Notes: a model not told the origin generated them from the letters alone. Shown: positions 2,439 through 8,751, counted from the stretch's first letter. The stretch: 64,000 bases of DNA from Natrarchaeobius oligotrophus (GCF_003841465.1 NZ_REFZ01000015.1:1-64000), one strand, 5' to 3'. Numbers and translations: made by a program.

Positions 2439-2854
2439 AGTGTTGGTAGTGTATCCAGCGGCAAAAGGCGGGCGGGGAAGAAGTCACGATAAATTGGAAT
2501 TACGTGCTCCACGGTTGGACTGACCGACCACTCTCCTTCGCATATCGAGTCTCGTCCGTACCACATTCGCACTGTGGGTTCACCATAGGTCGAGAATTAC
2601 TGTGTGTGCGACTCCTCTCGTGACGGAGTGGCTGACCTGATTACTGAATACGCCGATTACGACTCGTTCACCCGTGAACTACACCATCCGATCCGGGTGC
2701 AAATCTCTCAAATCGCGTGACTTCTCCTCCGATCTCGTTTGTAACGGTGGCAGATCCCGAAAACGTGGACGAGGCCAGACGCATCGGACTCCGCGGAACG
2801 CGTGACCTCCACCGACGGGAACCTTATCACGGATCGCCCGCCAATCTCGAGGCG
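2439..2854. other. Intergenic region with possible coding relic
   Basis: AT-richer than the flanks. A minus-strand TATA-like AATTTATCG near 2489-2497 could serve the HTH-10 gene. On the plus strand, 2589-2720 reads without interruption to a stop (ending HHPIRVQISQIA) in protein-like composition but has no start codon of its own; it may be a relic of a lost gene. Nothing else recognisable; menD or menF are not here. Confidence 0.4.
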
Positions 2855-3796
2855 ATGGTTTCGGAACTCTTCGACGACGAGCGCTGGGAGCCCGTCACGC
2901 CGCTGAACGACGACTTCCGCGACGTCACGTACCACCGCGCGGTCGATTCGGGAACGGTCCGGATCGCCATCGACCGCCCCGAGGTCAGAAACGCCTTCCG
3001 GCCGGGGACCGTCGACGAACTGTACGACGCCCTCGATCACGCGAAGCGTCAGACCGACGTGGGCTGCGTGTTGTTGACCGGCAACGGACCGTCGCCGAAG
3101 GACGGCGGCTGGGCGTTCTGTTCCGGCGGCGACCAGACGATTCGCGGCGAGGACGGCTACCAGTACGAGGACGCCGACACGGGCGAACCCGGCGGCAGCG
3201 AACCCGGCGGCGAGGACGGAACGCGAGCGCGGGCGGCGAAACAGGGCCGACTCCACATCCTCGAGGTCCAGCGACTCGTTCGCCACATCCCGAAGGTGGT
3301 CGTCTGCGTCGTCCCCGGCTGGGCGGTCGGCGGCGGCCACTCGCTGCACGTCGTCTGCGACCTGACGCTTGCGAGCGCCGAGCACGCGAAGTTCCTCCAG
3401 ACCGATCCGGACGTCGCGAGCTACGACGCCGGCTTCGGCTCGGCCTATCTCGCGAAACAGATTGGTCAGAAGAAAGCCCGCGAGGTGTTCTTCCTCGGAA
3501 AGACCTACTCCGCCGAAGAGGCCGCCGAGATGGGCATGGTCAACGAGGTCGTTTCCCACCACGAACTCGAGGAGACCGCCCTCGAGTGGGGCGACCGCAT
3601 CAACTCCAAGAGCCCGACTGCGATGCGCATGCTGAAGTACGGCTTCAACATGACCGACGACGGCATGATCGGCCAGCAGGTGTTCGCCGGCGAGGCGACC
3701 CGCCTGGGCTACATGACCGACGAGGCGAAGGAGGGACGGGACGCGTTCGTCGAGGGCCGAGAGCCCGAGTTCGACGAGTATCCCTGGCACTACTGA
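2855..3796 (+). CDS. menB: 1,4-dihydroxy-2-naphthoyl-CoA synthase
   Basis: 313 residues of the crotonase fold. MenB cyclises o-succinylbenzoyl-CoA to dihydroxynaphthoyl-CoA in menaquinone synthesis. Visible hallmarks are the oxyanion-hole segment FCSGGDQ (Ser90), GWAVGGGHSLHVVCDL, the YDAGFGSAYLA catalytic loop, the FFLGKTYSAEEA block and a C-terminal FDEYPWHY. A Gly/Glu-rich insert after GEDGYQYE lies in the disordered loop typical of the family. The ATG at 2855 is chosen because the 46 residues upstream in the open frame do not match the family. It is the first gene of the men cluster, but menF and menD are not found upstream in the window. Next gene 285 nt downstream. Confidence 0.93.
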   Translation: MVSELFDDERWEPVTPLNDDFRDVTYHRAVDSGTVRIAIDRPEVRNAFRPGTVDELYDALDHAKRQTDVGCVLLTGNGPSPKDGGWAFCSGGDQTIRGEDGYQYEDADTGEPGGSEPGGEDGTRARAAKQGRLHILEVQRLVRHIPKVVVCVVPGWAVGGGHSLHVVCDLTLASAEHAKFLQTDPDVASYDAGFGSAYLAKQIGQKKAREVFFLGKTYSAEEAAEMGMVNEVVSHHELEETALEWGDRINSKSPTAMRMLKYGFNMTDDGMIGQQVFAGEATRLGYMTDEAKEGRDAFVEGREPEFDEYPWHY

Positions 3797-4081
3797 CCGG
3801 TATCGCCGGATACCGTCGGCCGGCTTCTCGACCGTCAGCGGCCGCTCGTCCGCCGATCGTCTGATTCGTCGTCGAAGGCGGGCGAATGGTTCGGATCTCC
3901 CCGGCAACACGTTCCGGTACCTGACGCCGGAGATCGAATCGCCCTCAAGTTGGCATTCCGTCTCGAGGGATCGGTATTCGGAACTTCGGCCCGGCTAGAG
4001 ACGGGTGGTGGCGTCACTCGAGATGGAAGATACGGCAGCGAAGCGCAACGTTTTGGGCGTTGCGTCCCCGACTCTCGGACG

Positions 4082-5359
4082 ATGACCCTCCCCGATCGGT
4101 CCTCGCTCTCCCGCCGCGAGTACGCCCGCGCGCTGGTAGCCGCGGGTGGCGTCGCGGCGCTTTCGGCGTGTCTCGGCGTCGACGGGAACGACGGGGAACG
4201 CGACGTTCCACCGGGGACGAGCGATCCCGACGCGCTGCCCGAGCGCCAGCACGCCTGGAACGAGGCCCTCGAGACCGACGCGGACGGCAACGTCCGCCTC
4301 CCGGAACATCACGTTCTGGTTCCGCTTTCGCTGCGAGACGACCCGGACGAAGTTGCCAGCGAAACCACCGAGGACGCTCTCAGAACCCTCGAACGCGCCT
4401 ACGAGTGGAGCAACGACGGGTTGGTCTTTACGGTCGGCTACGCGCCGGCGTACTTCGACCGGTTCGACGAGTCGATGCCGCCGTCGGTCGACCTGCCCGA
4501 TCCCGAGGCGCTGACCGACCGCGAGAGCCCCGAGTTCGACGAGTTCGACGCCGTGATCCACCTCGCGAGCGATCGACCCGACGTCGTACTCGAGGCCGAG
4601 GAGGGACTGTTCGGCGAACGCGAGACGCTCAACGGCGTCGACGTCGAGGCGACGCTCGCGGACGTCTTCGAGCGGATCGACGACAGACGCCGGACCGGAT
4701 TCGTCGGTCCCGGTCTCCCGGCCGAACGGACGGACGTTTCGGGCGTTCCGGAGTCGATTCCCGAAGAAGCGCCGTTTTTCATGGGTTTTCGGTCCGGCTT
4801 CAGGGAGAGCCAGGCGACCGAGGATCGCGTGACGATCGACGAGGGACCGTTCGCCGGCGGCACGACCCAGCACGTCTCCTCGATGGACCTCCAGCTCGAG
4901 GTCTGGTTCGAACAGGACAACCACTACCAGCGCGTTTCGAAGATGTTCAGCCCGGAACACGCCGAGGACGACCTCGTCGGCGAACACGGCGAACGTCTCG
5001 GCGCGACCAGCGGACTGACCGACGAGCGCATCGAGGCGACGTCGGCCGACGCCCGCGAACGCGGCGTCGTCGGTCACGCACAGAAGGCGGCTCGAGCCCG
5101 GGAGGACGGCGATCCGCTGCTCCTCCGGCGGGATTTCAACACCGTCGACGGCGACCGACCCGGCCTGCACTTCCTCTCGCTGCAGCGCGGGATCGACGAG
5201 TTCGTTCGCGTGCGCGAGGCGATGACCGGTGCGGATCTCGACGTCCCGTTCGCGAACAACGGCATCCGCCACTACATCTTCGTCAACCGCCGCGGGAACT
5301 TCCTGATTCCGCCGCGGCCGCTGCGGTCGCTTCCCTCGCCCGATCCGGATCCGACGTGA
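4082..5359 (+). CDS. Tat-exported DyP-type peroxidase-like lipoprotein (DUF7405-like)
   Basis: 425 residues. It starts with a Tat signal (SRREYARALVAAGGVAALSAC) whose lipobox places Cys30 at the mature N-terminus, so it is probably a membrane-anchored extracellular protein. The body matches the dye-decolorising peroxidase/EfeB fold: a candidate proximal heme ligand His332 in GHAQKAAR, a candidate distal Arg in LLLRRDF (349-350), and LHFLSLQRGIDEFVRVREAM, which parallels the C-terminal block of EfeB. The catalytic GXXDG motif appears as GFRSG (235-239), so the acid-base Asp is Ser238 and classical peroxidase chemistry is doubtful. It is followed 48 nt later by a His/Asp-repeat lipoprotein. By analogy with EfeB it may act in heme or iron handling; this is inference. 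Confidence 0.75.
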   Translation: MTLPDRSSLSRREYARALVAAGGVAALSACLGVDGNDGERDVPPGTSDPDALPERQHAWNEALETDADGNVRLPEHHVLVPLSLRDDPDEVASETTEDALRTLERAYEWSNDGLVFTVGYAPAYFDRFDESMPPSVDLPDPEALTDRESPEFDEFDAVIHLASDRPDVVLEAEEGLFGERETLNGVDVEATLADVFERIDDRRRTGFVGPGLPAERTDVSGVPESIPEEAPFFMGFRSGFRESQATEDRVTIDEGPFAGGTTQHVSSMDLQLEVWFEQDNHYQRVSKMFSPEHAEDDLVGEHGERLGATSGLTDERIEATSADARERGVVGHAQKAARAREDGDPLLLRRDFNTVDGDRPGLHFLSLQRGIDEFVRVREAMTGADLDVPFANNGIRHYIFVNRRGNFLIPPRPLRSLPSPDPDPT

Positions 5360-5407
5360 ACAGTTCGAAAATCGACGACCACGACGACGCCACAACCACC
5401 ACGACAC

Positions 5408-6865
5408 ATGCAGAATCCAGACACGATCGATCGACGCGCGTTCGTTCGCCTCGGCGCGGCGACGGGGACGCTCGCGCTCGCGGGCTGTTTCGGAACCGAA
5501 GACGAAAACGGCACGGACGCGGACCCGGACGACGATTCGGGGGACGAGGCGGGCGACGGAACCGGAGACGACGTCACCGCCGCACCCGAGCTCATCGAGG
5601 TCGAGGATCCGCCCGAGGCGGTCTACGTGCCGACCCACCGCGAGGCGATGCGGATGCTCGAGCCGATCCACGAAGGCGATTTCGCGCTCGCGCCGATGCT
5701 CTCGTACCCGCACCCGTTCTGGGTGATCGCGGGCGGCGGCGACGACGACGAGGTCGAGCGCGTCGACCCCGAGGACGGACGCGGCGTCCACATGATGTTC
5801 ACCCTCTGGGACGCCGAGACCGGGATCGTCCTCCCCGTCGACGAGGGTGCCCAGCTTCGCGTGCTCCGGGACGGCGAGCCTGTCGGATCGCCGCGGTCTC
5901 CGTGGGCGATGATCTCCCAGGAGATGGGGTTTCACTTCGGGGACAACGTTCCGCTCCCCGAGGACGGGACGTACACGGTCGAAGTGACGGTTCCGTCTAT
6001 TTCGACCCGCAAGACCGGCGACCTCGAGGGCCGCCTGGAACAAAGCGAGACGATGACGTTCGAGTTCGTCTACGACGACGAGTTCCGCCACGAGGTCGTC
6101 GAGGGCGTCGAATACCTCGACGAGGAGCTGTGGGGCCAACGCGGCGCGCTCGAGCCGATGGAGCACGGCCACGACGGCCACGACGATCATGGCGGGGACG
6201 ACGATCACGGTGACCACGACGGCCACGACGATCACGACGGCCACGACGATCACGACGATCACGACGATCACGACGACCACGACGACCACGACGATCACGA
6301 CGACCACGACGGCCACGACGATCACGACGATCACGACGATCACGACGACCACGACGACCACGACGATCACGACGACCACGACGGCCACGACGATCACGGC
6401 GGACACCACGTCCCGTACTCCGCATTGCCCCGAATCGAGGCCTATCCCGGCACCCGTCTCGTCGACCCGAACGCGGACGAGGTAGCCGTGGAGACGAGCG
6501 ACCTCCCGCGAAGCGGCGACGCGGCGGTATTCGCCACGCTGCTGGAGTCGGGTTCGCGGCTCGCGGACGGCGACGAGGGATATCTGCTCGTCTCGCCCCG
6601 GACGCCGTACAACCGCGTACCGCTCGCGGATATGTCGATCGTCGCGACCGTCGAACGGGATGGCGAGGTCGTCGCCGAACCCGCGCTCGAGCAGACGCTC
6701 GACGACGAGTACGACCTCCACTACGGCGCGTCGGTCGAGGGCGTCCAGCCGGGCGATTCGGTCACGATCGCGTTCGAGTCGCCGGCGCAGGTCGCCCGGC
6801 ACATGGGGTACGAGACGGCGTTTCTCGAGATGCCCCCGGTCGAACTCGTCGTCGAGGAGCCATGA
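5408..6865 (+). CDS. Tat lipoprotein with 83-residue His/Asp repeat (DUF7350/FetP-like)
   Basis: 485 residues. The Tat signal with DRRAFVRLG and lipobox LAGC makes Cys27 the lipidated residue, followed by an acidic linker. Residues about 60-245 include GFHFGDNVPLPEDGTYTVEV, which recalls the P19/FetP periplasmic iron- and copper-binding family (HYG-N-v then G-Y-v). Residues 252-334 are almost only His, Asp and Gly in HDD units: a large low-affinity metal sink. A second beta-rich domain (about 335-485), probably the haloarchaeal DUF7350, ends the protein. Its last codon overlaps the next gene (ATGA at 6862-6865). It most likely binds divalent metal at the cell surface; which metal is unknown. 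The repeat DNA contains a perfect 72-bp duplication. Confidence 0.75.
   Translation: MQNPDTIDRRAFVRLGAATGTLALAGCFGTEDENGTDADPDDDSGDEAGDGTGDDVTAAPELIEVEDPPEAVYVPTHREAMRMLEPIHEGDFALAPMLSYPHPFWVIAGGGDDDEVERVDPEDGRGVHMMFTLWDAETGIVLPVDEGAQLRVLRDGEPVGSPRSPWAMISQEMGFHFGDNVPLPEDGTYTVEVTVPSISTRKTGDLEGRLEQSETMTFEFVYDDEFRHEVVEGVEYLDEELWGQRGALEPMEHGHDGHDDHGGDDDHGDHDGHDDHDGHDDHDDHDDHDDHDDHDDHDDHDGHDDHDDHDDHDDHDDHDDHDDHDGHDDHGGHHVPYSALPRIEAYPGTRLVDPNADEVAVETSDLPRSGDAAVFATLLESGSRLADGDEGYLLVSPRTPYNRVPLADMSIVATVERDGEVVAEPALEQTLDDEYDLHYGASVEGVQPGDSVTIAFESPAQVARHMGYETAFLEMPPVELVVEEP
6239..6382 (+). repeat. Perfect 72-bp tandem duplication in His/Asp repeat
   Basis: Units 6239-6310 and 6311-6382 are identical base for base, including the mixture of GAT and GAC codons. 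Each encodes a 24-residue block beginning GHDDHDD; a partial third unit starts at 6383. The wider repetitive region is 6161-6409. Identity at synonymous positions implies a recent duplication. Confidence 0.95.
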
Positions 6866-7707
6866 CGCTCGATCGATCCGACGCGTCGTACGGTCGCGTC
6901 CTGCTCTCCGTCTGTCTCCTCGCGGCGCTCGCGGCGGGGCTGGTCGTTCCGGCACCCGCACTCGCCGGCGATAGCGTGACCATCGTCTTCGTCGAGCCGA
7001 GCGAAGTCGACGCCGACTCCGGCGACTCGTTCGAACTCGACGTCGTGGTGAGCGATCACGGCGACTACAACGCCAACGGGATCGACGAGCTGTCGTTCGA
7101 CATCGAGTACGATCCCGACGTCTTCACCGTCGCCGACGTCGAACACCGGTCGATGCTCGCGGCGGGCGATCCCGACGCCGAGGTCGTCGGCTCCGCGGAG
7201 ATCGACGACGAGACGGGAACGGTGTCGATCGAGCAGGAACGCGAACCGTCGGGTGACGGAGCGATCGCGACCGAGCCCGCGGTGACGATCACCGTCGAGA
7301 TCGCCGACGACGTCTCGCCGACGACGGAGACGATCGACCTGACCAACGGCGCTGCGACGCTCGTCACCGACTACCCGCAGTCGGTGTTCGAACGCGACGC
7401 GACCGTCGCGATCGACGGCGGAGGCGAGCAGACCGACGCCGACGCAGACGCGAACGCCGACGGCGATCCCGACGGCGTCACGCTCGCCGACGATCCGGAC
7501 GAGGGCGGGTCCGGGGACGGTACCGGCGGAGCCGACGACGGCTCGAGCGCGGCGGACGACGAAAGCGGGGCTGGAGCCGCCGACGCGGGACAGAGCGAGG
7601 TCGCAGAGAGCGACGACGGCGATCCTATCCCGGGATTCGCCGCGACTGCGTCCATCGTCGCCGTCGTCGCTGCGCTCGCGTACGCGCTCGTCGCCAGCCG
7701 GTCCTGA
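6862..7707 (+). CDS. Secreted cohesin-like domain protein with PGF-CTERM sorting signal
   Basis: 281 residues. An N-terminal signal peptide (VLLSVCLLAALAAGLVVPAP, residues 14-33) is followed by a cohesin-like beta-sandwich at about 38-165 (VDADSGDSFELDVVV, then LSFDIEYDPDVFTVADVEH). An acidic, Ser/Gly-rich linker of about 75 residues leads to IPGFAATASIVAVVAALAYALVASRS at the end: the PGF motif, hydrophobic helix and basic tail of a PGF-CTERM archaeosortase substrate. The protein is therefore expected to be cut and lipid-anchored at the cell surface. It overlaps the previous gene by 4 nt and is surely co-transcribed. A role as scaffold or partner of the two upstream lipoproteins is inference. 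Confidence 0.75.
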   Translation: MTLDRSDASYGRVLLSVCLLAALAAGLVVPAPALAGDSVTIVFVEPSEVDADSGDSFELDVVVSDHGDYNANGIDELSFDIEYDPDVFTVADVEHRSMLAAGDPDAEVVGSAEIDDETGTVSIEQEREPSGDGAIATEPAVTITVEIADDVSPTTETIDLTNGAATLVTDYPQSVFERDATVAIDGGGEQTDADADANADGDPDGVTLADDPDEGGSGDGTGGADDGSSAADDESGAGAADAGQSEVAESDDGDPIPGFAATASIVAVVAALAYALVASRS

Positions 7708-7809
7708 CGGGCTGGCGAGCCGATCGCTGCGACCGCGATGGACGTCGACCACCGCTCGGGCGGTCGCAATGCCAACGTTGACACTCTCTCGAGTGGGACA
7801 CTCGAACGA

Positions 7810-8751
7810 ATGAGCACTGCCGAGCTCGAACGATCACGCACGAAAGCCTGGGTGATGGCCGCGCGACCGCAGACGCTCCCCGCAGCCGCGGCGCCGGTGG
7901 TCGTCGGAACGGGACTGGCGGTCCACGAGGGCGTCTTCGCCCCGCTGCCCGCGCTGATGGCGTTCGTCGGTGCGGCGCTGATCCAGATCGGCACCAACTT
8001 CGCGAACGACTACTACGACGCGATCAAGGGGGCCGACACCGACGACAGGGAGGGGTTCACCCGCGTGACGCAGGCGGGACTCATCCCCCCAGACCGGGTC
8101 AAACTCGCGACGCTCGTCACCTTCGCCCTCGCTATCGTCACGGGAACGTACCTCGTCTACGTCGGCGGCCTGCCGATCCTGGTCGTCGGACTCGTGAGCG
8201 TCGTCTGCGGCTGGGCGTACACCGGCGGTCCGTACCCGCTCGGCTACTACGGACTCGGCGATCTGTTCGTCTTCGTCTTCTTCGGATTCGTCGCCGTCGT
8301 CGGCACCTACTACGTTCAGGCCGCCGCGGCACTCGACCCCCTCGTAACGACGATCCCGCCGGGAACGATCACGCGCGAGGCGATCCTCGCCAGCCTCCCG
8401 ATCGCGGGACTCTCGACGGCGATCCTCGTCGTGAACAACGTCCGCGACCGCGAGACCGACGCCGCCACGGGGAAACGAACTCTCGCGGTCCGACTCGGCT
8501 ACCGCTGGAGCCGAATCGAGTACCTCGCCATGCTCGCGCTCGCGTACCTCACACCGATCTGGTTCTGGCTGGTGGAAGGGTTCTCCCCGGTCGTGTTGCT
8601 CCCGCTAGCTTCGCTGCCCTATGCCGGCGCGGTTTCCCGGACGGTCTGTACCAGAACCGACGGCGACGCGCTCAACCCGGCGCTCGAGCGAACCGGGAAG
8701 CTGCTGGCGATGGTCGCGGCCCTGTTCGCGCTCGGGCTGGTGATCGCATGA
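7810..8751 (+). CDS. menA: 1,4-dihydroxy-2-naphthoate polyprenyltransferase
   Basis: 313 residues, an integral membrane UbiA-family prenyltransferase with about eight or nine hydrophobic segments. It attaches the polyprenyl tail to dihydroxynaphthoate. The two Mg-binding Asp-rich motifs are NDYYD (66-70, followed by KGADTDDREG) and NNVRDRETDAATGKRTLAVR (from 209). The ATG at 7810 (MSTAELERSRTKAWVMAARPQT) is chosen over 7738 because the family starts close to AWVMAARPQT. It overlaps menC by 4 nt (ATGA). Confidence 0.93.
   Translation: MSTAELERSRTKAWVMAARPQTLPAAAAPVVVGTGLAVHEGVFAPLPALMAFVGAALIQIGTNFANDYYDAIKGADTDDREGFTRVTQAGLIPPDRVKLATLVTFALAIVTGTYLVYVGGLPILVVGLVSVVCGWAYTGGPYPLGYYGLGDLFVFVFFGFVAVVGTYYVQAAAALDPLVTTIPPGTITREAILASLPIAGLSTAILVVNNVRDRETDAATGKRTLAVRLGYRWSRIEYLAMLALAYLTPIWFWLVEGFSPVVLLPLASLPYAGAVSRTVCTRTDGDALNPALERTGKLLAMVAALFALGLVIA

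Follow-up and report, generated by a model that had tools for sequence, protein, structure and literature searches.

Three plus-strand open reading frames (ORFs), designated A, B and C, lie between menB (2717-3796) and menA in Natrarchaeobius oligotrophus (GCF_003841465.1, NZ_REFZ01000015.1:1-64000; this whole stretch of 64,000 nucleotides (nt) is called the window). A-B-C is a real conserved unit in one clade of A proteins. To us the chances look about even that it is an independent transcription unit for a module that binds metal and carries out redox chemistry outside the cytoplasm, with copper as the likeliest metal. A broader proposal, which falls somewhat short of even odds in our judgement, is that of a widespread, undescribed haloarchaeal extracellular copper route, in which a DyP-fold heme protein devoid of the distal Asp would act together with a tandem P19 protein whose iron site has given way to a Met/His copper site common to the two fused halves. 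The initial annotation, made from the sequence alone, had described three exported-protein genes in this interval and suggested a metal-handling module; all three genes are where it had placed them, and our results support the module. The features are as follows, all on the plus strand:

4043-4056, promoter-like element GCGCAACGTTTTGG, resembling a B recognition element (BRE)/TATA box, about 31 nt 5' of the A start, from an upstream alignment of 13 men-located loci
4082-5359, A, DUF7405 twin-arginine translocation (Tat) lipoprotein with a DyP/EfeB fold, from PF24152, fold comparison and a profile alignment with bacterial DyPs
5408-6865, B, Tat lipoprotein with two P19-like halves and a His/Asp-rich linker, from PF10634, PF24041 and the P19 fold
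5579-6142, B half 1, residues 58-245, P19 domain with H102, H128, M130, M168, M173 and H176
6161-6409, His/Asp-rich linker of B, about residues 252-334, from the sequence
6404-6862, B half 2, residues 333-485, DUF7350 (PF24041), degenerate P19-like domain with H438 and H465
6862-7707, C, exported cohesin-like protein with a C-terminal PGF, a transmembrane (TM) segment and a basic end, from PF00963 and alignment
7766-7805, menA upstream element CAATGCCAACGTTGACAC with palindrome TCGAGTGGGACACTCGA, conserved in the readable menA upstream regions

B and C overlap by exactly 4 nt (ATGA, 6862-6865), as had been noted earlier, and an overlap of 1-4 nt is seen again in most relatives. No fewer than 20 loci from four families (f1, f4, f7, f10), in and outside men, keep the order A-B-C, which argues against a chance arrangement; in one family most men loci keep it between menB and menA. 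In a tree of 58 A proteins, rooted at the midpoint only, a triad clade (27 rows) separates from a sister pair clade (31 rows) with support of 100/99, and the 13 men-located A rows form a single clade (100/94) that lies within the non-men triads. The history looks like a single insertion of A-B-C into men followed by partial losses, of which one men locus retaining A (L115) and another retaining A and B (L066) would be remnants.

Across 145 haloarchaeal genomes, 124 encode both A and B, 4 encode A only, none encodes B only and 17 encode neither, so that A is present in 128 and B, always accompanied by A, in 124 (Fisher p 1e-18, a statistic that ignores ancestry). Relatives of C occur in 39 of the 145. 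Against the view of A-B-C as one unit, A and B are core in about 85% of haloarchaea, far beyond the range of C, and the A and B genes lie apart in some genomes. The initial annotation had named scattering of the three genes in related genomes as a refutation; in the triad clade this refutation failed, as A, B and C remain side by side whether the locus is in men or not, and the three families as wholes do not form one unit.

The upstream regions suggest that A-B-C is transcribed on its own. A similar (A)NNAACNNTTTG element stands about 31 nt 5' of the A start in the 13 men-located loci, and the upstream element of A is a putative promoter. The menA ORF spans 7738-8751 with a likely start at 7810, and CAATGCCAACGTTGACAC is found 5' of menA at a similar distance in the readable menA upstream regions, including a locus (L131) with a different upstream gene; this suggests that menA has its own promoter. 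Since A and menA are each preceded by a promoter-like element at a similar distance, A-B-C and menA may be made as separate leaderless transcripts. The palindrome TCGAGTGGGACACTCGA in the menA upstream element is a possible operator of menA-menC-menE; upstream of A, a comparison across loci revealed no shared palindrome.

B matches PF10634 (Iron_transport) over residues 170-201 at 22.3 bits (cut-off 21) and PF24041 (DUF7350) over residues 361-480, and its family profile retrieves FtrA/P19 in the PDB (8vv5, E 1.9e-5). The model of half 1 matches FetP (5i0x) with a Z score of 14.5 over 138 residues, and its alignment with bacterial P19 has an hhalign probability of 96.9. The two halves align with each other in register (probability 96.4, E 1.2e-9); the direct alignment of half 2 with P19 is weak (probability 18.6). 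B looks like a tandem P19 protein joined by a His/Asp linker, which extends its earlier description as a His/Asp-repeat lipoprotein with a FetP/P19-like segment.

H102, H128, M130, M168, M173 and H176 of half 1 are invariant in 69 B proteins, and in half 2 H465 is present in all 69 and H438 in 67. The His of the P19 HxE motif, the Met of MVA and the His of DGPH align with H128, M168 and H176, respectively; the His of RHxDKETG is missing from half 1, and half 2 supplies its counterpart, H465. These aligned P19 residues are the ones we take to bind copper. The fourth copper ligand of P19 is donated by the partner subunit. In B, the ligands of both halves would meet at one site. P19 is also reported to have an acidic iron patch (Glu3, Glu44, Asp46 and Asp92) about 7 Å from its copper site (PMC9174327), and the HxExD and DGPH motifs hold Glu44, Asp46 and Asp92. 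In a comparison that covers these three residues, Glu3 of CjP19 not being alignable to B, Glu44 is replaced by M130 and Asp92 by M173 in 69 of 69 B proteins, and Asp46 by T, S or V at position 132 in 64 of 69. Most of the P19 iron site is thus gone from B, with the copper ligands kept and split over two halves, and the label "iron transporter", which databases give to its homologues, should not be applied to B.

A matches PF24152 (DUF7405) at 526 bits and carries a Tat motif (SRRE) and a lipobox (LSAC). Because a PDB sequence search with A gave no real relative, we turned to fold comparison. The AlphaFold model, built with 18 homologues supplied (predicted local distance difference test (pLDDT) 72.7, predicted TM-score (pTM) 0.78), matches DyP peroxidases with Foldseek E values down to 4.9e-14 and a top VIA Z of 23.1; Z is 22.9 over 310 residues for Sphingomonas EfeB (6jbn) and 22.0 for E. 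coli EfeB. The A profile also aligns with seven bacterial EfeB/DyP sequences (hhalign probability 98, E 1.5e-13), which are real sequences fetched with an EfeB stretch as seed, the seed itself not being aligned. The fold, the profile and the Tat and lipobox signals bear out the earlier identification of a DyP/EfeB-like lipoprotein.

In this profile alignment H332 of A corresponds to the proximal heme His, R349/R350 to the DyP Arg-Arg motif and S238 to the distal Asp of GxxDG. H332, R349 and R350 are invariant in 58 of 58 A proteins, and the distal Asp is found in none of the 58, position 238 being S, A, N or G. According to a DyP review, some DyPs depend critically on the distal Asp and others on the Arg, so the activity of A is not predictable. 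A is a DyP-fold relative whose peroxidase activity is uncertain with the distal Asp gone. It scores 18.5 bits against NCBIfam TIGR01413, below the cut-off of 100.5, and this general DyP model matches in none of the 145 haloarchaeal genomes; among the 247 genomes of the phylum examined, DUF7405 is restricted to Halobacteria. A solo DUF7405 subfamily (L080, L118, L119) lies 3' of an exported protein of 640-670 residues and of unknown family.

C matches the cohesin family PF00963 at 30.7 bits (cut-off 24.1, E 4e-7), and its tail, in which a TM segment and then a basic end come after a PGF, is also the consensus of 16 relatives. The cohesin half of its earlier description as a cohesin-like PGF-CTERM protein stands; by its visible motif C may be a PGF-CTERM protein as well, but it matches no NCBIfam model, CTERM models included, at E<1.

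Gene neighborhoods also bear on the metal. Of 150 SCO1 hits, 21 have an A or B gene no more than 4 kb away, versus 0.6 expected, and B adjoins SCO1-TlpA-CcdA in seven fetched loci (sister pair clade and solo loci). The ligand pattern of B and the SCO1 context together lead us to favor copper over iron as the probable metal, and they weaken the affinity to iron systems that the initial annotation had pointed out. It had also reported no permease nearby, which we confirm: FTR1 (PF03239), the usual permease for P19 and EfeB, which adjoins P19 in bacteria, was found in none of the 145 haloarchaeal genomes, with control genomes positive. MEM475, an uncharacterized membrane protein beside B elsewhere, was considered as the missing permease and was not found in this genome, in a search without a positive control. 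A multi-pass membrane protein of about 470 residues with no Pfam or NCBIfam match recurs beside B (L085:2518-3945, L140:6444-7853 and 13 other loci).

Of the known systems, the Streptomyces lividans operon sco-ecuc-SLI_4212-dtpA, which functions in copper trafficking and whose DtpA is the proposed oxidizer of Sco-bound Cu(I) (PMC4736821), is the nearest working analogy for A-B-C. There too the gene of an exported Tat-type DyP is linked to that of a metal chaperone acting outside the cytoplasm, and SCO1 stands beside A and B in related haloarchaea; by contrast, B is P19-type rather than ECuC-type, no SCO1 lies beside the window triad, and C has no counterpart there. In Paenarthrobacter a DyP gene lies 3' of a PCu(A)C copper chaperone gene. 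Compared with EfeUOB/FepABC, in which EfeB is the DyP subunit, A shares the EfeB fold, Tat signal, proximal His and Arg-Arg motif, as an exported metal-linked redox protein, but it carries a lipobox and has no distal Asp, EfeU is missing, and Pfam reports no EfeO domain in the three window proteins. Likewise, B half 1 shares the P19 fold and His/Met copper ligands with the P19/FtrA proteins of FetMP/FtrABCD, both being exported metal carriers, whereas B combines two P19-like halves in one chain, its acidic iron patch is mostly replaced by Met, Thr, Ser or Val, and neither an FTR1 permease nor an FtrB cupredoxin adjoins it.

In a copper module, B would be a covalent P19 pseudo-dimer with a single Cu(I)-type site, to which half 1 would contribute H128/M130/M168/M173/H176 and half 2 H465, and its His/Asp linker would buffer divalent metal. 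A would bind heme via H332, with R349/R350 reacting with peroxide, and might oxidize Cu(I) to Cu(II), or clear H2O2 beside copper, as proposed for Streptomyces DtpA. C would anchor the complex at the cell surface, and the copper might be passed to end users such as cupredoxins or terminal oxidases.

Several observations weigh against copper. The SCO1 adjacency comes from the pair clade, solo B genes and one men locus, where SCO1 lies near a men-located A that has no adjacent B or C (G130), and from no complete triad locus. Some B genes have P-ATPase neighbors, and a motif check of these ATPases gave the P1B-2 (Zn/Cd/Pb) signatures CPCx4SxP and DxGx7N rather than copper-type ones. The missing distal Asp leaves a peroxidase role for A in doubt. 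Finally, bacterial EfeB and P19 both serve iron, and Haloferax volcanii has an iron-siderophore binding protein (fhuD, HVO_1464) that is raised 8-fold on iron starvation (PMC11349517) and whose gene number falls between those of menA (HVO_1462) and menB (HVO_1465), so the men slot can hold iron genes.

An iron version of the module, in which A, like EfeB, oxidizes Fe(II), B binds iron in the manner of P19/FetP, and uptake proceeds either through the FhuCDG siderophore system or through a permease unrelated to these proteins, draws on this fhuD precedent, on the parent families of A and B in EfeUOB and FetMP/FtrABCD and on the "iron transporter" label. We nevertheless regard it as unlikely, given that FTR1/EfeU is not found in the 145 haloarchaeal genomes, that most of the P19 acidic iron ligands are replaced in B, and that the recurrent neighbor of B is SCO1 rather than iron genes. 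Equally unlikely in our view is general buffering or tolerance (Zn, Cd, Ag, Cu), with B as a surface metal sponge acting through its linker and A guarding against peroxide. The linker is present in 15 of 21 B proteins adjoining C versus 2 of 48 without C, and some B genes lie near the P1B-2 ATPases or a CDF transporter; however, 6 of the 21 triad B proteins and almost every pair B protein lack the linker, whereas the P19-like His/Met ligands never vary, arguing that the linker is not the core function of B. Our results do not support a functional link of A-B-C to menaquinone. Use of menaquinol electrons by A-B-C for extracellular metal reduction, a link raised by the initial annotation, is very improbable: one lineage (13 loci that form one clade) has long retained the triad between menB and menA, but non-men triads branch deeper, A and menA have separate promoter-like elements, and the unit encodes no membrane electron carrier.

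Regulatory sequences outside the triad clade bear on A and B as partners. The element TTCG-N8-ACCASAAC precedes A and B genes in the sister pair clade; a looser form precedes A or B in 17 of 54 local hits, as the element does in 33 of the 104 hits taken from a genome scan. Its presence before both gene types points to co-regulation of pair-clade A and B. The longer form TTCG-N8-ACCASAAC-N4-TTT stands before pair-type A/B genes in many genera (L085, L086, L087, L096, L097, L099, L101, L102, L129) and is a possible regulon motif, often with an HVO_0163-type helix-turn-helix (HTH) gene near. An exported beta-propeller-like protein, weakly like lactonase-type NosZ, occurs near five non-men triads (L065, L069, L089, L090, L093).

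In the literature searched, we found no paper naming DUF7350 or DUF7405; a Haloferax mediterranei copper survey nowhere contains "Dyp" or "iron transport", and a keyword search of silver and denitrification transcriptomes for A/B genes, whose A homologues are labeled "Dyp-type peroxidase" in databases, recognized none. About 85% of the sampled haloarchaea have A and B. If B handles copper and not iron, the annotation of a whole family misleads, and there is a new candidate system for the copper supply of haloarchaea. How P19 keeps its copper and iron sites apart could be studied in the fused P19 with its rewired site, which would offer a natural test.

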